Origin: Tannerella sp.
GTDB taxonomy: Bacteria > Bacteroidota > Bacteroidia > Bacteroidales > Tannerellaceae
Reading direction: 5' to 3'
NCBI GenBank assembly: GCA_031272655.1
Contig: JAISTJ010000090.1
Span: forward strand, 1 to 14,606
Length of the DNA stretch: 14,606 bases
Of the stretch, positions 72 to 12,436 are shown in pieces. Position numbers and translations under genes: made by a program. The notes under the pieces were generated by a model. The model saw only the letters and a program-made list of their open reading frames with translations. It ran no database searches and was not told the DNA's origin. How positions within the stretch are numbered: position 1 is the first letter of the stretch; each line of letters starts with the position of its first letter.

Positions 72-3000
72 TTAAAATGTTATATCCAAACCAAGACTAA
101 AAGTGCGGCTGTTCGGATAAGCATACGTAGAATTGTCAGTTTCGGGATCAAGCCCCTTGTAAGGTGTTATCACAAACGGATTATTCACGTCGGCATATAC
201 CCGTATTAGTGATAACACGTTCTTGTTGACAGGAATAGTGTAACCCAGCGTAATATTGCGGCAACGTACAAACCAACTGTTAGAATTGTAGTAATCGCCG
301 ATGTAGCTGCGATAATCAACCTGAAAGAAACTTGGTTGGGTGGTTGTCTGGTAGTCGTGCGTCCAGCAATCTTTCATTGATACCGGCATGTTGTAGTTTT
401 GCTTGATCTGATAGACCGACAAATCGCTAACTCCCTGAATTAACCACAAATCTTTGTAAGTTCCGCCTTTGAGCAGTCCGAGTTGCCCGTAGAAATAGAT
501 GTTAAAATCGAAATTTTTCCATCTTACGGTATTATTCAGTCCTACCAAATATTTCGGGTCGGTGCTTCCGTAGAACACTTTGTCGGCATCGTCAAGTTTG
601 CCGTCGGGTTGTCCCGTTTTAAGAAACCGTCCGTTTTCGTCCGTTTTGATTGAACCGTCGGAGTTATATTGAAAACCGTCAATGTCCTTCACTTTGATAA
701 CGCCGGGCAAGGCTCCGGGTTGATGCGGCACGGTTTCGCCTGCCTGTATCAGTCCGTCGGTCAGAAATCCGTAAGACGCACGAATAGGCGCATCTACAAA
801 CTCATAAGCCGCCGGTTTCCATGTATCAGCGCGTTCTTTCCATCTGTCGCGGTAAAATGAAAACGTAAAGTCGGTATTCCACGAAAAATCCCTGTTGTTT
901 GCATTGACGGAATTTACAGTAAGCTCAAAACCACGGCTTTGTGTGCTGCCGATATTAGCGGCGATTGACGAAACTTCGTAATACGACAACAAGCTGCGCG
1001 ATGACAACAAGTCTGCAATAACACGGTCGAAATATTCGGCTGTGATATTCAGGCGATTATTGAAGAAACCAAGGTCGAGACCTGCGTTAAACTCTTTTGT
1101 AGTCTCCCATTTCAGAGATGTATTGGCCATCTGCGCCAAATAAACGCCTTTGTATTGCGTCTCGTTTCCGAAAGTGTTATTGTTTCCTACCTGATAGTAG
1201 CTGATGGCGCTGTATCCGATGTTGGAGTTTCCTGTTTCACCGTAGCTTAATCGCAGTTTCCCGTTAGAAAATACAGAACTTAAGGGTTTCAGAAAGTCTT
1301 CTTCAAGAAAACGCCACCCGACCGAAACAGACGGGAAATAACCCCAACGGTGGTCTTCACTGAAGTTGGAAGCGCCGTCGGCGCGTATCGTCGCCTGTAG
1401 CAGGTATTTGTCCATGAACGAATAGTTAAGACGACCGAAGAAAGACGCCAATTCGTCTTTTGTAGCCCACGAGCCGACGGTTGGCCGCGCTGCATTACCG
1501 GCTTCCAGATTATTATACAGGAATCCGTCAATCAAGAAGTCTTCATTTCCACCCCATAACGATTCATACATAAAGCGTTGGAATGAATAACCTGCAAGAA
1601 CTGTAAAACTGTGATTATCAATCTTTTTGCTGTAATTTGCCGTAAGGTCCAACAGGTAATCGGAATGGTCGGTTTGACCAATGTCCGCCCTTCCCCCGAC
1701 TTGTTTTCCCTGCAAGGTTGATTTGGGGACATACTGCTTGCGTTTGGCATAATTACGGTCAATGCCGCCGTTTATCTTGAAGATCAAGCCTTTAACAGGT
1801 TCAAATTCAACATAAACCGAGCCTAACAACCTTTCTTTGACTCCAATGTCATCTACTTCGAGCAGGGAAACGGGATTAGGATTATAAGGCGCCGTAACCT
1901 CAATAGGATAATCGCCATTCTCGTCCTTGACGGGTATTAACGGGTTAAACTGGGTTGCGGCGACCAATATTCCGGCGCTGGCAGCCCAATTCGGATTCAG
2001 CGCTACATTTTTCTCGGTTTTCCTTGAAACAGTCAGGTTGACGCCTGCCCGTACATATTTGCCGAGTTTCTGGTCTATATTCAACCTGCCGGTAAACCGT
2101 TCAAGGCCGTCGTTTTTGACAATGCCTTTCTGGTCGAAGTAATTGCCTGAAATCAAATACTTTGTGTATTCATTGCCGCCGTTAACCGAAATGTTGTGCT
2201 GTGTCATGAAACCGGTGCGCGTTACCTCATCAATCCAGTCCGTTTCGTTAGCCGGATTGCTAATCATTGCGTCCGTGTATCTCGGAATGAAAGGCGATAA
2301 ACTTGATTCGCTGACGTTGCCATAGACGCCGACTTTGTTCTGCCGCAACCAGACTTCATAATCGTAACGGTTTGCCTGAACCATGAAATCATGTGCATTC
2401 AGCACTTCAAAATTCTTAGCAATGCTTTGTGATGCAACCGTCGCCGAATACTTCACAACGGGAGCGCCCGAACTGCCCCGCTTTGTTGTGATGATGATGA
2501 CGCCATTACCTGCCCTTGCACCGTAAATGGCTGTCGAGCTGGCGTCTTTCAGCACCTCAACAGATTCAATATCGTTCGGGTTGATAGAACCAAGAATGTT
2601 GTCTTTCGTCCCGTCCGTATATCGTCCTGCATTAAGTCCGCCGGGGTCTTTAACTGGGAATCCGTCAATGATAATAAGCGGGTCGTTACCGGCTGAAATT
2701 GAGGCGGCTCCGCGAATGCGGTACGACGCTCCCCCGCCCGGCTGTGCACTTACGGTATTAACCTGCAAGCCGGCCGCCTTACCGGCTAAAATATGGCTGA
2801 CGGTAGAAACCGTTTGCACCGGTGCGTCATCAAGTTTGATTGAAGAGATAGCGCCTGTCAAGTCGCGTTTCTTCTGCACGCCGTAACCCACAACTACCAC
2901 TTCGTCAAGGGCTTGGGTGTCTTCACTGAGGGTAACGGCGAACGATGATTGGTTGCCGACAGTCAATTCCTGCGCGGCGTAGCCGACATACGAGACTTGC

Positions 3001-3530
3001 AGGATGGCGTTTTCAGCTACGGTCAGGGTGAAGTTGCCGTCGGAGTCGGTGCTGGTGCCGTTGGTAGTGCCTTTTTCAACAACGTTGGCGCCGACTATTG
3101 CTTCGCCGGAGGAGTCAACGACTTTGCCGGTGATGCGTTTGCCGCTCTGTTGTATGAAGGCTTTGAAAGTAGAGTTGTCTTCTTTTTTTGAGATGACAAC
3201 ATGGTCGTTAACCATCGTATAGGTATAGTCGCTACCTAAGAGGTTATCGAGGATTTCTTTAACAGGCTTGTCTTGTTCGTTGACTGTTACCTGTTTGTCG
3301 GCATCAATGTTTTGCCTGCTGTAATAAAACAGATAGCCTGACTGTCGTTCCATCTCGTCGAGAACGTCCGAGAGAAGAGCATTTTCTGCAATGATAGATA
3401 TGCGCCTGAGTTGGGAATAACCGTCCACAGCCGACAATTGCAGGAATAAACAGATCCAAAATAATAACGTGAGTCTCATGACTTTAAAAAATTTTGCTTG
3501 AAAAATTTGTGAAATTAAAAATTTGTCCAT
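72..3530 (-). CDS. SusC/RagA-family TonB-dependent outer-membrane transporter with STN signalling domain
   Basis: This 1152-residue protein imports glycan or other large ligands across the outer membrane using TonB energy. The hydrophobic signal segment is at about residues 18-36. An STN (secretin/TonB short N-terminal) domain follows at about 42-116. It is found in transporters that signal to a FecR anti-sigma factor. A carboxypeptidase-regulatory-like beta domain lies at about 132-202 (RITGKVVDSSGEAIVGANV). The family hallmark DEVVVVGYG is at 209-217. The plug spans about 218-350, with LIIIDGFPV and VEVLKDASSTAIYGARAGNG. The rest is beta-barrel and ends in an aromatic residue (DITF), as outer-membrane barrels do. 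Length is normal for the STN-containing subgroup. ATG at 3530 was preferred to the internal Met18, because long N-regions are usual in this subgroup. It follows sigma and anti-sigma genes and precedes a probable susD. The ligand cannot be read from the sequence. No housekeeping -7 element was found upstream, which fits control by the neighbouring ECF sigma factor. Confidence 0.95.
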   Translation of the reverse strand: MDKFLISQIFQAKFFKVMRLTLLFWICLFLQLSAVDGYSQLRRISIIAENALLSDVLDEMERQSGYLFYYSRQNIDADKQVTVNEQDKPVKEILDNLLGSDYTYTMVNDHVVISKKEDNSTFKAFIQQSGKRITGKVVDSSGEAIVGANVVEKGTTNGTSTDSDGNFTLTVAENAILQVSYVGYAAQELTVGNQSSFAVTLSEDTQALDEVVVVGYGVQKKRDLTGAISSIKLDDAPVQTVSTVSHILAGKAAGLQVNTVSAQPGGGASYRIRGAASISAGNDPLIIIDGFPVKDPGGLNAGRYTDGTKDNILGSINPNDIESVEVLKDASSTAIYGARAGNGVIIITTKRGSSGAPVVKYSATVASQSIAKNFEVLNAHDFMVQANRYDYEVWLRQNKVGVYGNVSESSLSPFIPRYTDAMISNPANETDWIDEVTRTGFMTQHNISVNGGNEYTKYLISGNYFDQKGIVKNDGLERFTGRLNIDQKLGKYVRAGVNLTVSRKTEKNVALNPNWAASAGILVAATQFNPLIPVKDENGDYPIEVTAPYNPNPVSLLEVDDIGVKERLLGSVYVEFEPVKGLIFKINGGIDRNYAKRKQYVPKSTLQGKQVGGRADIGQTDHSDYLLDLTANYSKKIDNHSFTVLAGYSFQRFMYESLWGGNEDFLIDGFLYNNLEAGNAARPTVGSWATKDELASFFGRLNYSFMDKYLLQATIRADGASNFSEDHRWGYFPSVSVGWRFLEEDFLKPLSSVFSNGKLRLSYGETGNSNIGYSAISYYQVGNNNTFGNETQYKGVYLAQMANTSLKWETTKEFNAGLDLGFFNNRLNITAEYFDRVIADLLSSRSLLSYYEVSSIAANIGSTQSRGFELTVNSVNANNRDFSWNTDFTFSFYRDRWKERADTWKPAAYEFVDAPIRASYGFLTDGLIQAGETVPHQPGALPGVIKVKDIDGFQYNSDGSIKTDENGRFLKTGQPDGKLDDADKVFYGSTDPKYLVGLNNTVRWKNFDFNIYFYGQLGLLKGGTYKDLWLIQGVSDLSVYQIKQNYNMPVSMKDCWTHDYQTTTQPSFFQVDYRSYIGDYYNSNSWFVRCRNITLGYTIPVNKNVLSLIRVYADVNNPFVITPYKGLDPETDNSTYAYPNSRTFSLGLDITF

Positions 3531-3537
3531 AACTTTG
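3506..3537 (+). promoter_or_regulatory. Bacteroides-type promoter for antisense RNA
   Basis: A -33 box TTTG (3506-3509) is followed after 20 nt by the -7 box TAACTTTG (3530-3537), matching the Bacteroides consensus TTTG-N19-21-TAnnTTTG. It points away from susC and overlaps the susC start codon on the other strand. No open reading frame follows, but an intrinsic terminator does. Predicted transcription start is about 3543. Confidence 0.65.
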
Positions 3538-3542
3538 CATGT

Positions 3543-3640
3543 TGTTAAGTGATAAATAAAGAATTCTCATACTGTCTTTTTTTATAGTGAAGGCTTAACA
3601 CTTTAGCCGGAGAGCGCTGGTACCGCTTTCCGGTTTTTTT
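3543..3640 (+). ncRNA. Candidate cis-antisense sRNA to the susC leader (DonS-type)
   Basis: The predicted transcript is about 98 nt. It runs from a near-consensus promoter (3506-3537) to a terminator hairpin with seven T (3607-3640). The predicted 5' end TGTTAAG (3543-3549) is exactly complementary to CTTAACA (3594-3600), closing the body of the RNA just before the terminator. Inside is a small hairpin, ACTGT 3571-3575 with ATAGT 3584-3588 (one wobble), that displays a U-rich loop. The RNA would be complementary to the susC leader from about 13 nt upstream of its ATG. Cis-encoded antisense sRNAs in this position repress susC homologues in ECF-sigma/anti-sigma PULs of Bacteroides (DonS in B. 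fragilis). Function here is inferred from layout. No coding potential is seen. Confidence 0.6.
3607..3640 (+). terminator. Intrinsic terminator of the antisense RNA
   Basis: The 10-bp stem CCGGAGAGCG (3607-3616) / CGCTTTCCGG (3624-3633) has one G-U pair, a 7-nt loop, and TTTTTTT at 3634-3640. In the opposite direction the stem is not followed by T residues, so it should not stop minus-strand transcription from fecR into susC. Confidence 0.8.
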
Positions 3641-3702
3641 CCGTATAAATTAATCCGTGTACATAGGCATTTTTTTAGTTTAAATTGTTAATACTCAGTT
3701 AG

Positions 3703-4761
3703 TTATCTCTTTCTTTTGTTGATTGTCAATACGTTCTTCTCCTTGTCGTAAACATAGCTGAACGGGATGTCGCTCTGGACTACCCGCATGATGTCCGTAA
3801 TCGTTTCATGCTGGTAAAATTTGCCGGTTCCGCGGTAGTTCATCACTGTGGAATCCGTGATGACAATCGTCGTTTTGTAGTAGTGCTCAAGCCGTTTAGC
3901 CATCTCTTCAAACGTGATGTCGTCGAAAAAGTACAGCCCGGTGATCCATGTGGTGTATTTTTGCGTTTCAACAGCTGTCGCTTTCATCTTGCCGACCGTT
4001 TCATCGTAATAATATTTTTGCCCGGGCTTAACTTTGTATGGTTTAGCACTTTGGTCGTTAGGCTCTACAGTAACGCTGCCATCAATCAGGATGGTTTCGA
4101 AGGCATTGCTGTTGCTGTAGGCGTAAATATCAAAGATTGTGCCTGTTGCGGTTACTTTGTGTTGCGAAGTTTGCACGACAAACGGTTTGCGGGCGTTTTT
4201 TTCTACAATGAAATAGCCCTCGCCATCAAGGCTCACGTTGCGCTCATTGCCGCTGAATCTTGACGGGTAGGTAAACTTTGAATGGGCGTTGAGCCACACA
4301 GTAGAGCTATCGCTAAGCAATAGTTTAACTCTCTGACCTTCAGGTACTTCGGCTGTATTGAATGTGATCGGTTCCTCGCGTACATTATTTATCCTTAGCA
4401 TGATGTCTATACCGAGCAGGATGATGATAGCGGCTGCAGCGGCGTATTTCAGGATTGGGGATAGCGGATTTGCGGGTTTACGCAGTTTGCCTGGTTTACG
4501 CAGTTTGGCGGCCATTCTTCTTATGGCGCCTGTCGGGGTTTTGCCCGCACCGGTTTGGATCCTTTCCCAAAGCGCATTAAACTGTTCATCAATGATTTCC
4601 GGATCGGAATACTTCAGTTCGTCTTTAAGTATCCAGATGCGTTCCATATCGAAGAGCAACGAGCGGAAATCGGCATCATCAGTCGCTTTCTGGGCTACCT
4701 TGCATATCTCGGACAGCCGACACTCATGCTCTAAGTATTTGATAATAATTTTTTCATCCAT
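3703..4761 (-). CDS. FecR-family anti-sigma factor
   Basis: This 352-residue inner-membrane regulator holds the adjacent ECF sigma factor inactive until the SusC-type transporter reports ligand. The cytoplasmic N-terminal part (about 1-100) would bind sigma. A single transmembrane helix lies at about 103-122 (YAAAAAIIILLGIDIML). The periplasmic FecR domain spans about 136-235, with EVPEGQRVKLLLSDSSTVWL and LDGEGYFIVEKNARKPFVV. A C-terminal DUF4974-like domain spans about 278-347 (FFDDITFEEMAKRLEHYY), the part thought to contact the STN domain. The start is 43 nt after the sigma gene stop, so the two are probably co-transcribed. Length and domain order are typical. An 18-bp tandem duplication gives the repeated KLRKP just before the membrane helix. 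Confidence 0.95.
   Translation of the reverse strand: MDEKIIIKYLEHECRLSEICKVAQKATDDADFRSLLFDMERIWILKDELKYSDPEIIDEQFNALWERIQTGAGKTPTGAIRRMAAKLRKPGKLRKPANPLSPILKYAAAAAIIILLGIDIMLRINNVREEPITFNTAEVPEGQRVKLLLSDSSTVWLNAHSKFTYPSRFSGNERNVSLDGEGYFIVEKNARKPFVVQTSQHKVTATGTIFDIYAYSNSNAFETILIDGSVTVEPNDQSAKPYKVKPGQKYYYDETVGKMKATAVETQKYTTWITGLYFFDDITFEEMAKRLEHYYKTTIVITDSTVMNYRGTGKFYQHETITDIMRVVQSDIPFSYVYDKEKNVLTINKRKR
4471..4506. repeat. 18-bp tandem duplication inside fecR
   Basis: Two adjacent 18-nt units (4471-4488 and 4489-4506) share GGTTTACGCAGTTT and differ only at their first few bases. In the protein they give KLRKPG then KLRKPA, adding a basic juxtamembrane repeat on the cytoplasmic side of FecR. 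Confidence 0.75.
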
Positions 4762-4804: not shown

Positions 4805-5380
4805 TTATAAAATTTTTATCAGTAGCATAATCGTCAGCAGGTCTTTGAGGTCGTCGCGAAGCTTTATTGCGGCATTTCTGAAATGCGATTCAACCGTTCT
4901 GTCTTTGATTTTCAGCTTTTTCGCTATATCTTTGTGCTCTAAGTCATGAAAGATACGCAACCTGACAACCTCTGCGCATCTGGCAGGCAGTTTGGTGAGG
5001 GCTGCTTCAATTTTTTCTCTTAAGTCTTTGTTTACTAATTCGTTAAACACCTCGTTATCATCACTCAAGCTGGCCTGATATTCATCACGGGCAAATTCAA
5101 TGAGCATTCGGGCTGCGTATTCTTTTTCTACTGCTCTGTGTTTCAGGTAATTAAGGCAGTTGTTGCGAACCCATTTTGACAGGAACTTTTTGAGATCGTT
5201 CACTTCGAGGGTCGCTCTTTTTTCCCAGAAGTCAGCGAACACATCCTGTACGATATCAAGGGCATCATCTTCGCAAACAAAACGGCTCGCCCAAGCCGTA
5301 AGCTTAGGAAAAAGACTTGTGTACAGCACTTTAAATGCCGCCTCGTCGCCCTGTCTGATTTTCTCGATATCTACTATCAT
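4805..5380 (-). CDS. ECF-type RNA polymerase sigma-70 factor
   Basis: This 191-residue protein belongs to the Bacteroidetes ECF sigma factors paired with FecR regulators. Region 2 lies at about 10-75 (GDEAAFKVLYTSLFPKLTAW and DALDIVQDVFADFWEKR, the core-binding and -10-recognition part). Region 4 lies at about 128-180 (LTKLPARCAEVVRLRIFHDL, then DIAKKLKIKDRTVESHFRNA, a helix-turn-helix for the -35 element). No region 3 is present, as expected. ATG 5380 gives the canonical start ahead of the 'IRQGDEAAF' motif. It heads the sigma-fecR-susC-susD run, and its likely target is the susC promoter downstream. It has its own housekeeping-type promoter only about 14 nt upstream of the ATG. Confidence 0.95.
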   Translation of the reverse strand: MIVDIEKIRQGDEAAFKVLYTSLFPKLTAWASRFVCEDDALDIVQDVFADFWEKRATLEVNDLKKFLSKWVRNNCLNYLKHRAVEKEYAARMLIEFARDEYQASLSDDNEVFNELVNKDLREKIEAALTKLPARCAEVVRLRIFHDLEHKDIAKKLKIKDRTVESHFRNAAIKLRDDLKDLLTIMLLIKIL

Positions 5381-5981: not shown

Positions 5982-7208
5982 ATGAAACATGTATTGTTGT
6001 TAGTTGAAAGAGCCAAGAGCCTCTTGTCATTCCGGGTAACATCGAGGGTTGCCCGTAACGCTGCAGCCGCAGGCTGCGCTATCGTCCTGACAGTCAGCGG
6101 GTGTACTCAGGATGAAGTCGTGAATCCGCAAACGACCCTTCCCGCAAGGGAAATAAGCTTCCGTGTACAAGGCGGAATGCCTGCTTCTTATGCCACAGGA
6201 ACGACTGTGAGTTTTGTTAATGCTTTTATAGTAAACGGCTTCGCGGTGAGAAATGTTGCCTCACAACAAGATTTAGCTGATGTTGATTATATTGGGGCGA
6301 CCGATCGGACGCAAGTGCTTGATGCTGTAACGGTTTATCGCATGGAGGGCACCACCAACAACTTCGATTACAATCCTAAGGTTTATATTGAAGAAATCAA
6401 CAACGGTGCGACGTTTGTAGCCTACTCTCCTGTCAGCGCCCAAATCACGCAAGGTTTGAAGGGCAATACTACTAACGAGATAAAATACACCGTGTTAGCG
6501 CCGAGAGCCGATGGCTATACAGCCCAGGAAGACTTTTTAGTAGCGCATACGACAATCTATAATAGTGCGCCGCCCCTGACCAACACTCAGGTAACGTTCA
6601 ACTTCCTCCACGCTTTGAGCCGTATTTATGTAAAAGCGCGTAACCGTTATAACTCGGATATCACTATCACTTCTATTGCGTTGAGAAACCTGCATAGATC
6701 CGGCTGGTTAAATATAGACACAGATGGTGTCATGCCGACTGCTAATGATGGCACGGCTGATATCAACGAAGCGTATAACAGCAGCCCGACGGATTTTACG
6801 GACTATAAAGTACTTTGGATACCGGCAGATACGTTTGAATACGATTATGCCTACATCCTGCCGCCTTTGGGGGTAACATTGCCTGCAAAAACCGATTCGA
6901 TGAAATTTGTCGTCTCGCCGGAACAGGGCATGCTTGTCCTGCCGCAGACTACAGTCATAGATAAGAATTTGGACGGGAATCCTGATTATGACGGTTTCTA
7001 TCTTGATATAACTTATAAGATAGGAGGTTCTACATACACCGCCAAAGCCCAGTATGAAGACCAAAATAGCATTGACCGTACAAGTTATGGCTATGGGATA
7101 ACGTTTGAGTTTGGACGGCAATATGCACTTACTATTGATTTTGACGGCACCGGCAAGGAAGTCAGTTTCGACGTTGATGTCGAAGCTTGGAATCCGATTG
7201 TTCAATAA
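5982..7208 (+). CDS. Fimbrillin-family surface lipoprotein
   Basis: This 408-residue protein is related to the FimA/Mfa-like fimbrillins of Bacteroidales, which form fimbrial stalk or tip subunits after lipoprotein export and proteolytic maturation. The lipobox LTVSGC ends at Cys41, after an unusually long basic N-region (29 residues) and a short hydrophobic core (AAAAGCAIVLTVSG). Mid-protein, VTFNFLHALSRIYVKARN matches the 'F.H.L(S/A)+(I/V)' motif typical of the family. The C-terminus FGRQYALTIDF...VSFDVDVEAWNP matches the family's last strands (…V.V..W.P). ATG 5982 is the only reasonable start and follows an AT-rich leader. A DUF5119 gene follows after 109 nt. No usher, anchor or further pilin gene is present, so whether it builds a polymer or is a standalone surface protein is open. 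Confidence 0.85.
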   Translation: MKHVLLLVERAKSLLSFRVTSRVARNAAAAGCAIVLTVSGCTQDEVVNPQTTLPAREISFRVQGGMPASYATGTTVSFVNAFIVNGFAVRNVASQQDLADVDYIGATDRTQVLDAVTVYRMEGTTNNFDYNPKVYIEEINNGATFVAYSPVSAQITQGLKGNTTNEIKYTVLAPRADGYTAQEDFLVAHTTIYNSAPPLTNTQVTFNFLHALSRIYVKARNRYNSDITITSIALRNLHRSGWLNIDTDGVMPTANDGTADINEAYNSSPTDFTDYKVLWIPADTFEYDYAYILPPLGVTLPAKTDSMKFVVSPEQGMLVLPQTTVIDKNLDGNPDYDGFYLDITYKIGGSTYTAKAQYEDQNSIDRTSYGYGITFEFGRQYALTIDFDGTGKEVSFDVDVEAWNPIVQ

Positions 7209-7259
7209 CCGAAAATAAAACCGTTATGAGTAAATAAATTTTTAACATGTTTGATTCTG

Positions 7260-7293
7260 ACCCTGACAAGGTTTGTGAAAACCTTGTCAGGGT
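7260..7293. repeat. Perfect 15-bp hairpin between fimbrillin and DUF5119 genes
   Basis: ACCCTGACAAGGTTT (7260-7274) and AAACCTTGTCAGGGT (7279-7293) are exact reverse complements around the loop GTGA, a GNRA-type tetraloop in RNA. No T-run follows on the plus strand, so it is not a standard terminator. It sits in the 109-nt gap of a likely two-gene operon. It may protect or set the 3' end of the upstream mRNA, or be one copy of a dispersed palindromic element. Confidence 0.9.
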
Positions 7294-7317
7294 TAATTCA
7301 AATATAATTAATGACTT

Positions 7318-8538
7318 ATGAAACCGCTATTGATTTGCATAATCTTACTGTCAGCAACAGGATGTGTGATGGAAGCGTTGCCTGATTGCGGCGTGCAGAT
7401 TACATCTACTTCCGGCACGCTTGCGCCTGTGTATGTGGTTATTCACTGGGACGGGAAACCGGAACATACGCTGCCGAAAGGGATGACCGTATATTGGTTT
7501 CCGAGTGCGGGCACACTGCTGAGTTCCGATATGGGAATCGCCGGCGGACGAGAATATCTTGTTCATGATATTTATCACACTCTGACGCTCGATTTTTACG
7601 GCAATACGAACCTTTCGTTCCGCAGTAACGGCGCCCGCAGTGATTATGAGGTTTTTAACGTTCCTGCAACTGGGGTGTATAACTATACAGGTGTGATGCT
7701 TACGGGCGAAAAAACCGTGGCGGAAGCGTCAACTCACTTCTATTCGGCAGGCGGCGGTTATTTGAGTCATTCGGAGGAAATGCTGCGCCAACAACGTGAT
7801 TATGAGCTTGTTGATACGCATAAAACACTTACCGGCGATACCGTTACCGTACATTTTTACCCGAAGAATGTCCTGCGTGAGTTTACTTTCCTGATATACA
7901 ACATTGATGATTTGAGCAATATGCGCACTGCAAGCGGCGCAATAACAGGAATGTCTGCTTCATACTTACCTGCGAGGGACACAAGTCGAGAGTTTGCGTC
8001 GCCTAACAGTCTGGCATCTACGCCTTCCACGATACTGTTTACTAATGTGGAAGCCGTCTTGAACGGACAGACTAACCCGCGGTGGACGGAAGCCGACAAG
8101 GAACTTTTCACCGCCATGAACCCGCTGTGGGAAAGCTCTGATACGACTGAAGGCTGGACAGGCGACTGGCTGATAGGCAGTTTTTACACTTTCGGGCCTA
8201 TTGACCCCGATTTGCATCAGTTCCGCCTGTCGGTAGTAGCGATCAGCAACGGCAACAAGGCCTACATCGGCACGTGGGGAGAAGATGTCGGTCGCAGCAG
8301 GGAGGCGTCTGTCGGAGTGCAGATAGACAGCGCAATGAGTGTCAACGGCACTTTGGCCGAACAACTTGGCTGGCGCATCCGTAACGGCGGCTTCGATATC
8401 GTTCTCGGCAACGACAATAACAACCTGAAATTGCCCGCCGAAAACATTGATGGCAACGACGGCGGTATTGACGTGAATGTGGACGGGTGGGGCGATATAA
8501 TAGACATCAAGAGCAGGCATTCGCCGAAAAAACAGTGA
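7318..8538 (+). CDS. DUF5119-domain lipoprotein, fimbria-associated
   Basis: This 406-residue protein has a compact lipoprotein signal, MKPLLICIILLSATGC (Cys16). The body fits DUF5119: an early strand VYVVIHWDG, then the 'GMTVYWFPSAG' segment (positions about 59-69, the family's 'gMtv.fyP..G'). Later come REFTFLIYNIDDLSNMRTAS with GAITGMSASYLPARD, and near the end GSFYTFGPI and QFRLSVVAISNGNKAY. DUF5119 proteins commonly sit next to fimbrillin genes in Bacteroides and are thought to be accessory or subunit lipoproteins. No enzymatic motif is seen. The acidic Asn/Gly/Asp-rich C-terminal stretch (about 362-395, NDNNNLKLPAENIDGNDGG) may be a flexible or metal-binding tail. Its stop is 2 nt from the opposing recJ stop. 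Confidence 0.8.
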   Translation: MKPLLICIILLSATGCVMEALPDCGVQITSTSGTLAPVYVVIHWDGKPEHTLPKGMTVYWFPSAGTLLSSDMGIAGGREYLVHDIYHTLTLDFYGNTNLSFRSNGARSDYEVFNVPATGVYNYTGVMLTGEKTVAEASTHFYSAGGGYLSHSEEMLRQQRDYELVDTHKTLTGDTVTVHFYPKNVLREFTFLIYNIDDLSNMRTASGAITGMSASYLPARDTSREFASPNSLASTPSTILFTNVEAVLNGQTNPRWTEADKELFTAMNPLWESSDTTEGWTGDWLIGSFYTFGPIDPDLHQFRLSVVAISNGNKAYIGTWGEDVGRSREASVGVQIDSAMSVNGTLAEQLGWRIRNGGFDIVLGNDNNNLKLPAENIDGNDGGIDVNVDGWGDIIDIKSRHSPKKQ

Positions 8539-10422: not shown

Positions 10423-11136
10423 CTATTCAAAGTTGAAAGTGATTACAACCATGCGTGTAGTGGCTTTAGAAAGGGCTTTTGTGTAGATTTTGTCCGGTTC
10501 GTTGGCAAGATCTTCACGGGTATGGTTCATCGCGTCGGGCAATCCGAACTTGAACTTGATTTCGGGGGCGAGGCGGAAGAAGGGCATGTAAAAAGTGCAC
10601 CCCATGCCAAATTCAAAGCCGTAATCAACGGGATTCATCAGTAGCGGCACGCCCCTTTTGCGCCCAAGGTCGAGCGCCCCGTAAATGCCCGCCAGCACGT
10701 ATGGACGCGAGTTGTTAAGCCTCATGGAGGAAATTTTCAGGTCGAGCGGCACCGACAGGTAGTTTGAACGGACATTGATGCGTTTTTCCTCTTCGCTTTG
10801 TATTTCTTTGAAATACACTGACTTATCTCCAAAATGAATGGTTGGCGTCAGACGCAGGTTCATGTAGGGATTGACGAAGAGGTCGCCGATGACGCCCACA
10901 CTGAAGCCGGGCGAGTAGGCGGGGATTTCCGCAAACCAGACCTCGCCGTTTTCGGCGGCGATGCCATTGTTGGTAAGAAGCAGATCCTGGGCATGAAGGC
11001 CTACGTGGAAACCAAAATGATAGAGCTTGTTGTCGGCATAAGGCTGATTCTGCAAAGCGCGTCTCTGCGCCTGAAGCTGGAGCGACAACAACGTGAAAGC
11101 AAGCATATATACTATGTTTCCGAAACATATTTTCAT
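10423..11136 (-). CDS. porT: PorT-family outer-membrane protein of the type IX secretion system
   Basis: This 237-residue protein has the signal peptide MKICFGNIVYMLAFTLLSLQ ending at QLQAQ. The mature start RRALQNQPYADNKLYHFGF, followed by YSPGFSVGVIGDL and RLTPTIHFGDKSVYF, is characteristic of PorT. SNYLSVPLDLKISS and RPYVLAGIYGALDL are typical beta-barrel strands, and the protein ends in FNFE. PorT (SprT in gliding species) is needed for export of proteins by the type IX system in Porphyromonas gingivalis. I chose the ATG at 11136 because it starts a proper signal peptide. The frame stays open to 11208, but that part overlaps the divergent ferredoxin promoter and has no signal-like start. 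No promoter of the TAnnTTTG type is visible for it. No other type IX gene is in the window. Confidence 0.88.
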   Translation of the reverse strand: MKICFGNIVYMLAFTLLSLQLQAQRRALQNQPYADNKLYHFGFHVGLHAQDLLLTNNGIAAENGEVWFAEIPAYSPGFSVGVIGDLFVNPYMNLRLTPTIHFGDKSVYFKEIQSEEEKRINVRSNYLSVPLDLKISSMRLNNSRPYVLAGIYGALDLGRKRGVPLLMNPVDYGFEFGMGCTFYMPFFRLAPEIKFKFGLPDAMNHTREDLANEPDKIYTKALSKATTRMVVITFNFE

Positions 11137-11196
11137 TATAAATAATAACGTTTGAAGTAAGAAGTTATTGCATAAGGCAAAAAAAACGGATTTTTG

Positions 11197-11227
11197 TTTG
11201 CAAATCAAAAAAAATGCGTTACCTTTG
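11197..11227 (+). promoter_or_regulatory. Promoter of the ferredoxin gene
   Basis: TTTG (11197-11200), a 19-nt spacer, then TACCTTTG (11220-11227): a complete match to the Bacteroides consensus. Predicted start is near 11233, giving a 28-nt AT-rich leader. It suggests strong constitutive expression. Confidence 0.85.
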
Positions 11228-11509: not shown

Positions 11510-12436
11510 ATGATTAATCGAATTTTGATACGAATCAAAGTGCTGCAAGTTATTTACGCATTCTACCAGAAAGGGGACAGCGATCTCAAAGTGGCTGAAA
11601 ACGAGTTGATGATGAGCCTTCGACGCACTTATGACCTGTATTTTTATTTCCTGCTGCTGATAGTGGATATCACCCGCGCCTATGAACGGATGATTGACGC
11701 CCGCAGACACAAGTACCGCCCTACGGAAGCCGAACTGCATCCCGACCTGCGGCTGCTTAATAACCGTCTCGCGAAGCAGATTTCAACCAATCAGGCGTTC
11801 TTGAAATATACGCGCGAACATGGCATTTCGTGGTCTAATGACGCCGAGTTTATAAAGAAAACACTCGAAAGGATCTTAGAATCAGATGTTTATAATGACT
11901 ACATAACCGGCAAGGATGATAATTACGAAACAGACAAGACTTTTTGGCGCGCTGTTTTCAAGCGTATAATCTCCGATAACGACGCTATTGATGATTATCT
12001 TGAAGAAAAATGTATTTATTGGAACGAAGATATTGATGTGGTTGAATCGTTTGTAATCAAGACTATAAAACGATTCAACGAAGATTCGGATGACTGGCAG
12101 GATCTTATCCCGATGTTCAACAATCAGGATGATTACGACTATGTTATCAAACTGTTTCGCCAAACGCTGCTTCATGGAGAAGAGTTTAGACAACGTATTG
12201 ATAATCACGCCAAGAATTGGGAATCCGAAAGACTTGCATTGATGGATATTGTTATTATGCAAGTAGCTATGGCTGAGTTGCTTAACTTCCCTACAATACC
12301 AGTTAGCGTTACTTTGAACGAATATATTGATGCGGCGAAATACTACAGTACACCTAAAAGCAGCGTTTTCATCAACGGCGTACTTGATGCTATAGTAGCT
12401 GAACTTAGAGACGAGAAACTTATTTTTAAAGATTAA
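11510..12436 (+). CDS. nusB: Transcription antitermination factor NusB (long Bacteroidetes form)
   Basis: This 308-residue protein binds boxA RNA with NusE (ribosomal protein S10) to prevent premature termination in rRNA operons. The conserved NusB fold is clearest at the C-terminus, about 235-300: NWESERLALMDIVIMQVAMA, then FPTIPVSVTLNEYIDAAKYY, then SSVFINGVLDAI. The N-terminus MINRILIRIKVLQVIYAFYQ is the family's first helix. At 308 residues it is about twice the length of E. coli NusB (139), the extra being a helical central region (about 60-200). This longer form is normal in Bacteroidetes. It heads the close-packed nusB-yajC-ybbR-coaE set, with 17 nt to yajC. Confidence 0.93.
   Translation: MINRILIRIKVLQVIYAFYQKGDSDLKVAENELMMSLRRTYDLYFYFLLLIVDITRAYERMIDARRHKYRPTEAELHPDLRLLNNRLAKQISTNQAFLKYTREHGISWSNDAEFIKKTLERILESDVYNDYITGKDDNYETDKTFWRAVFKRIISDNDAIDDYLEEKCIYWNEDIDVVESFVIKTIKRFNEDSDDWQDLIPMFNNQDDYDYVIKLFRQTLLHGEEFRQRIDNHAKNWESERLALMDIVIMQVAMAELLNFPTIPVSVTLNEYIDAAKYYSTPKSSVFINGVLDAIVAELRDEKLIFKD

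Follow-up and report, generated by a model that had tools for sequence, protein, structure and literature searches.

A predicted structured antisense RNA opposite the susC leader of a Tannerella sp. locus, with a promoter -7 element built through the susC start codon

DonS-type RNAs are associated with PULs that use ECF sigma/anti-sigma pairs. DonS and the PUL-associated cis-antisense RNAs of Bacteroides were reportedly described by Cao et al. 2016. According to the available excerpts of the papers cited here, DonS is a cis-antisense RNA that represses its susC locus in B. fragilis (PMC7366714, PMC11697453), by a mechanism stated as unknown (PMC11697453), and the PUL-associated cis-antisense RNAs form a family of 78–128 nt (PMC7366714). 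The housekeeping sigma factor of Bacteroides has the promoter consensus TTTG / TAnnTTTG, and this sigma-ABfr promoter is canonical in 52% of the cis-antisense RNAs of B. thetaiotaomicron (PMC7366714). Antisense RNAs are present at 15 PULs in B. fragilis (PMC7366714, PMC10994844, PMC11697453, PMC9723704 and PMC10861873 together); for PULs of Bacteroides, Ryan et al. 2020 gives ten more and Ryan et al. 2024 gives 32 in all. The 32 antisense RNAs of B. thetaiotaomicron show both negative and positive correlations with susC (PMC10994844), so that repression is not a given. The ECF sigma/anti-sigma pairs themselves control host-glycan PULs (PMC11697453). In Vibrio cholerae, where the antisense RNA MtlS lies at mtlA, transcription of the target lowers the antisense RNA (PMC6597380).

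We analysed a stretch of 14,606 nucleotides from Tannerella sp. (hereafter, the window), which carries a susC gene on the minus strand together with genes for an anti-sigma factor and a sigma factor. The preliminary description of this DNA had placed a sigma/anti-sigma pair beside susC, and Pfam confirms a FecR protein and an ECF sigma factor. The contig stops 71 nt past the susC stop codon; therefore, susD and the enzyme genes fall outside the view and the PUL is a putative one. At 5982-8538 (+), divergent from the sigma, fecR and susC genes, the window also has genes for a fimbrillin-like protein (Mfa_like_1) and, after it, a DUF5119 protein. The features that concern us are as follows.

72..3530 (-), susC, TonB-dependent transporter (Pfam CarbopepD_reg_2 and plug; STN under the Pfam cut-off)
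3506..3509 (+), predicted -33 element TTTG of the antisense promoter (from sequence; sigma-ABfr consensus TTTG / TAnnTTTG, PMC7366714)
3530..3537 (+), predicted -7 element TAACTTTG of the antisense promoter (from sequence; same register in 68 of the 98 listed long genus gaps)
3543..3641 (+), predicted antisense RNA of about 99 nt (5' end placed by promoter spacing; fold z -3.0)
3543..3550 (+), 5' arm of the closing stem, pairing with 3593-3600 (fold; paired changes retained in relatives)
3556..3585 (+), inner AU-rich hairpin, 3556-3563 with 3578-3585 (fold)
3593..3600 (+), 3' arm of the closing stem (fold)
3605..3640 (+), intrinsic terminator with a 12-bp stem, a 7-nt loop and a T run at 3634-3640 (fold; paired changes retained in relatives)
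3662..3669 (-), TGCCTATG, conserved sense motif and candidate ECF promoter element of susC (GCCTATG counts; role inferred)
3703..4761 (-), fecR-type anti-sigma factor gene (Pfam FecR and FecR_C)
4805..5380 (-), ECF-type sigma factor gene (Pfam Sigma70_r2, r4_2 and ECF)

Positions 3506-3641 of the plus strand thus hold a promoter, a non-coding stretch and a terminator opposite the susC leader. We consider it probable that this unit gives rise to a cis-antisense RNA, structured and about 99 nt long, which would act as a threshold brake on susC. What we observe directly are the sequence elements, how they are conserved, the strand on which they lie and the fixed register of the -7 box, and every element of the complete antisense unit proposed earlier sits at its proposed place. 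The promoter TTTG-N20-TAACTTTG was found exactly at 3506-3537, and the first T of its -7 box lies opposite the A of the susC ATG (3530). Two in-frame ATGs lie at the start of susC, at 3530-3528 and 3479-3477, either of which may be the start in use. The predicted 5' end of the RNA lies 13 nt from the A of this first ATG, in agreement with the earlier estimate that complementarity to the susC mRNA begins at about -13. The predicted RNA is fully complementary to the susC leader, which a co-fold restates. Stops break all three of its reading frames and leave no ORF of note, as expected from the earlier claim of about 98 nt without coding potential (99 nt as predicted here).

The predicted fold of 3543-3641, at -28.0 kcal/mol (z -3.0, with 2 of 200 shuffles as good), comprises the closing stem, the inner AU-rich hairpin and the terminator. 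The pairing of TGTTAAG with CTTAACA ahead of the terminator, already proposed, was recovered between 3543-3549 and 3594-3600, and so was the small inner hairpin, which is absent from the consensus of six orthologous units described below. For the terminator, the seven T residues held (3634-3640) but the stem length of 10 bp did not, since the stem has 12 pairs (3605-3635).

By description, the unit resembles the DonS family in that it is antisense and divergent at the 5' end of a susC homologue. Its predicted 99 nt fall inside the 78–128 nt range (PMC7366714), its promoter is of the sigma-ABfr type, and an ECF sigma/anti-sigma pair lies beside its susC, as in DonS-type PULs. The assignment to a DonS-type class therefore fits on every feature brought to a result, namely position, length, promoter and ECF pair. 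Unlike DonS, the window comes from another family of the Bacteroidales and its unit is predicted from sequence. The register through the start codon and the covariation of two hairpins are properties established here, and DonS is likened by description only.

A FecR search over 41 genomes of the genus returned, besides that of the window, seven hits that stand apart at 233–297 bits, the next scoring 188. At E 1e-5, 40 of the 41 genomes have a FecR match; the single-contig genome G031 has none. One of the seven hits (L056) is without a following susC and without the unit. Five of the six relatives with orthologous fecR and susC (L051, L052, L054, L055 and L057) retain the unit, that is, TAnnTTTG at a susC ATG, the 5' stem and the terminator hairpin. 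In L052 the box sits at the second in-frame susC ATG, and in L054, L055 and L057 the terminator T runs are interrupted. In the sixth orthologue, L053, the promoter is degenerate and the unit is interrupted by an insert; this insert (L053 1035-1415, genome G021) carries repeated AGTTCTAC-like units and lies between the two halves. The preliminary description had named loss of the unit from close relatives that still have the operon as the observation that would count against it; what we found is retention in five of six and degeneration in L053, an outcome in favour of the unit. When the window and the five retained units were aligned by sequence only (n = 6, a small set), 97.7% of cells paired. 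Five pairs change on both sides, one in the closing stem and four in the terminator, compared with a shuffled mean of 1.6 and with 0 or 1 for slid structures; the closing stem shows several one-sided changes in addition. The conserved stems anticipated for an alignment of relatives are thus present.

Some orthologues of the window (L053, L054, L055 and L057) carry an inverted repeat, GGTATNNNATACC or a near form of it, at about codons 7–11 of susC, immediately ahead of the antisense promoter. Over the 41 genomes, GGTATNNNATACC was found at 137 places per strand vs 84 for a backward control, the excess being concentrated in a few genomes (G031, 13/0; G021, 10/1; G024, 9/0). The repeat or a looser form of it stands at N-terminal codons of susC in 5 of 268 loci. 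In view of this last count and the modest genome-wide excess, we set aside GGTATNNNATACC as an operator beside the antisense promoter.

We define the register as the antisense -7 box running through the susC start codon, which reads on the sense strand as CAAANNTATG at the first ATG. The genus set comprised 149 of at least 150 listed fecR places, one at a contig end being skipped; 13 without a next ORF and one with the fecR stop too far off were dropped. The remaining 135 listed gaps from fecR to the next ORF consisted of 29 shorter than 100 nt, 98 of 100–300 nt and 8 longer ones. The next ORF was taken as susC, which is not so for a few (e.g., L056, L066 and L071) as judged by their first residues, and the counts are not independent because gaps and loci within one genome or genus are related. 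The exact register of the window was found at the first ATG in 68 of the 98 long listed gaps (30 lacked it), in 1 of the 29 short listed gaps and in 1 of 107 other ORFs, the last being mechanically chosen controls of at least 150 aa from the window and L001-L049, some of which are surely not genes. Since CAAANNTATG is nearly absent from the other ORFs and the short gaps, we rejected it as a general start context.

On the antisense strand of the 98 long listed gaps, TAnnTTTG was found in 83, a terminator in 56 and both in 48 (42 were without an antisense terminator by the rule used); the corresponding sense counts were 5, 0 and 0. The 29 short listed gaps had 7, 3 and 2, respectively, on the antisense strand. 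With duplicates removed and a stem of at least 8 bp, antisense terminators were present in 52 of 105 long genus gaps, vs 0 on the sense strand and 1.0 in shuffles. Among the 68 in-register loci, the antisense strand folded better than its complement in 66 (mean -28.2 vs -18.3 kcal/mol), with a mean dinucleotide-shuffle z of -4.1 and 59 loci below -2. The fold comparison and the terminator counts show that the antisense strand is the better structured and terminated one.

These data bear on another reading, in which the structure acts within the susC mRNA leader, as an attenuator or riboswitch, and an A-rich start context gives rise to the antisense promoter incidentally. In favour of it, any stem on one strand is mirrored on the other, the -7 box and the start codon overlap, and the sense strand does beat its own shuffles on average (mean z -2.3, with 39 of the 68 below -2). 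However, the sense strand folds worse in 66 of 68 loci and has a terminator in none of 98 gaps, CAAANNTATG occurs at just one of the 107 control ORFs and at one of the 29 starts that follow short gaps, and Rfam at gathering thresholds gave zero matches in the whole window. We therefore disfavour a sense-leader structure and regard this reading as very unlikely. In the terminator hairpins of in-register RNAs, RUGYY was seen in 39 of 77, by eye in an apical position opposite CAY; it is present in other families too and might be a pairing loop.

As an approach that is blind to proteins, we built a covariance model from the six orthologous units and ran it on the 41 whole genomes of the genus. At E 1 the model hit 32 of the 41 genomes and left nine without a hit. 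When 30 hits, one per genome, were fetched, 25 lay between fecR and susC, one lay beside susC alone and four adjoined neither gene; without the six training members, 19 of 24 lay between fecR and susC. Applied to 99 gap loci, the model gave 74 hits, with 69 loci matched antisense (63 of 93 once the training members are set aside) and 5 of the 74 hits on the sense strand. In the alignment derived from the gap hits, which is biased by the model and includes the five sense rows, 92.5% of cells pair vs 66.3% after shuffling.

Two findings go beyond the preliminary description, namely the -7 box running through the susC start codon and the recurrence of this register in many families of the order. 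The order sample consisted of 101 loci (72 fetched and 29 given; L255, from the genome of the window itself, was left out). These are best-scoring fecR hits and not a random sample, 20 of the 101 coming from G139, which belongs to the family of the window. Five loci had no usable next ORF, leaving 96, and one of the 28 families (f86) had no usable locus. The register was found in 45 of the 96 loci and 16 of the 28 families; split by gap length, it is present at 37 of the 67 long and 8 of the 29 short gaps. The 45 in-register loci had an antisense terminator in 31 cases and a sense terminator in one, and the antisense strand folded better in 39; for the 67 long gaps, the terminator counts were 41 antisense and 3 sense. 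A Bacteroidaceae sample, assembled around a named Phocaeicola MAG, had 39 loci, of which 2 lacked a next ORF and 37 were usable (L365 and L366 were left out). In this family, to which the DonS host belongs, few loci have the register (2 of the 37 usable ones), and both of these have a terminator. Genome G097 of the order sample is apparently identical to G165 of the Bacteroidaceae sample, as judged by shared contigs and positions, so that L348 and L369 are counted in both. At 29 loci outside the Bacteroidales, nine of which have gaps of at least 100 nt, we found no instance of the register and no antisense box in the gap or in the first 80 nt of the next ORF. A related-locus search named a single locus (L080), in which the layout is absent. 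In the excerpts of the PUL antisense RNA literature that we covered, which lie outside the founding study of Cao et al. 2016, we found no mention of a start-codon register or of an order-wide family.

The plus-strand promoter is predicted from its boxes to be of the housekeeping (sigma-ABfr) type of the Bacteroidetes. With spacers of 18–22, the promoter pattern matched three times in the window vs 0.46 expected. With spacers of 19–21, it matched 220 times in the genome of the window vs 41 times when read backwards, which indicates that most of its matches in this genome are not chance. A second match, TTTG-N19-TACCTTTG, lies at 11197-11227 (+), between the ORFs 10423-11208 (-) and 11510-12436 (+). 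One could argue that the promoter-like and terminator-like sites opposite susC arose by chance and are functionless, given that the gap is AT-rich and that the window contains two further matches to the promoter pattern. The conservation, the paired changes in the stems, the fixed register, the strand bias and the controls all show that the unit is not chance, and we hold this explanation to be improbable in the extreme.

The -33 box of the window is not shared in the same way as the -7 box. Among the 68 in-register genus loci, exact TTTG at spacers of 18–20 was present in just six, and we rejected a family-wide conserved -33 TTTG. The earlier expectation that both promoter boxes would be conserved in relatives thus stood for the -7 box and failed for the -33 box. 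The segment 3480-3540 (+) is similar to 11 loci over 40–56 nt, and four of the eight of these 11 that were run through ARAGORN adjoin a tRNA or tmRNA gene. These stable-RNA neighbours are tRNA-Asp in the genome of the window, tmRNA and tRNA-Ser in the genus, and tRNA-Met in another family. By this sequence comparison, the antisense promoter region of the window resembles the promoters of stable RNAs.

On the sense side, TGCCTATG followed by A-rich sequence is present in the window and in long fecR-susC gaps. Its core, GCCTATG, was found in 77 of 106 listed long gaps of the genus and 30 of 67 of the order, mostly 110–150 nt upstream of susC; among short gaps the counts were 3 of 29 and 1 of 29, respectively. 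An A stands eleven bases from the first base of GCCTATG in 91% of 99 cases. From these sequence patterns, GCCTATG would be part of an ECF promoter, with a predicted susC mRNA start near 3657. The antisense RNA would then cover the greater part of the leader, between 13 nt upstream of the AUG and about 16 nt downstream of the predicted mRNA start. It is less likely that GCCTATG marks the start of a mini-ORF, read by eye as short peptides such as MYTD.

From these observations we infer RNA production and repression of susC, in a scheme that would run as follows. Under uninduced conditions, the housekeeping sigma factor would supply the antisense RNA constantly, and the RNA would pair with any stray transcript of the susC leader, to within 13 nt of the AUG. 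The pairing may stop ribosome loading or open the duplex to RNase. Upon a substrate signal through the transporter, FecR would release the ECF sigma factor, which would drive strong susC transcription from near 3657 in excess of the antisense RNA. Because the antisense promoter is built from the susC start codon, polymerases passing this codon would also clear the antisense promoter. The outcome would be a leak-proof switch with a threshold.

The same geometry raises the question of whether the RNA is needed at all. By transcriptional interference alone, an opposing promoter would hamper susC through collision, the RNA itself being inert. The promoters converge, the antisense -7 box lying on the susC ATG, and both MtlS/mtlA and RnaG/icsA are documented cases according to the excerpts of PMC6597380. 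The same source describes MtlS, the nearest worked parallel, as cis-antisense to the 5' UTR of a sugar transporter gene, with a putative promoter within the target gene, and interprets it as a brake that raises the induction threshold, as we propose here. MtlS differs in its 71 bp of complementarity, in its phylum and in its CRP-controlled target without an ECF sigma factor, and we claim no kinship. RnaG likewise has a promoter flanking the start codon of its target, but differs in that the interference is mutual and transcriptional, the RNA promoter is dominant and a single locus is concerned (PMC6597380). Against interference alone, the RNA is structured beyond its terminator, with a 5' closing stem that shows one two-sided and several one-sided pair changes in the six orthologous units, and with better antisense folding in 66 of 68 loci; a pure road-block should need neither a 5' stem nor a terminator placed before the susC promoter region. 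Interference as the sole activity therefore seems unlikely to us.

Alternatively, the antisense RNA might be made but be helpful, either protecting the susC leader or acting in trans on other mRNAs. The coexistence of positive and negative correlations between antisense RNAs and PULs in B. thetaiotaomicron is compatible with this idea (PMC10994844), but the functional case, DonS, shows repression in the excerpts at hand (PMC7366714, PMC11697453), and full complementarity up to -13 of the AUG would favour a block. We judge such a helper function to be quite unlikely, and the preferred interpretation remains an antisense RNA that brakes susC.

A wider proposal is that, in the Bacteroidales, the fecR-susC gap serves as a standard two-way switch. 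The two-hairpin antisense RNAs would form one ancient family, with a housekeeping -7 element made from the susC start codon and a 5' end locked 13 nt before the AUG, and polymerase entering susC would wipe the antisense promoter. In some families this switch would gate most of the ECF-controlled SusC transporters with long leaders. For this proposal as a whole, we see the case as evenly balanced. The points of specialist interest are the exact register, the conserved two-hairpin RNA and their spread over the order. Together with the sense motif, the register and the two-hairpin RNA allow single-base tests of whether the RNA, polymerase collision or both set the threshold, and the covariance model can list such RNAs in genomes without RNA-seq. 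SusC transporters determine which glycans are taken up by Bacteroidales, and it is their synthesis on which the proposed brake would act.
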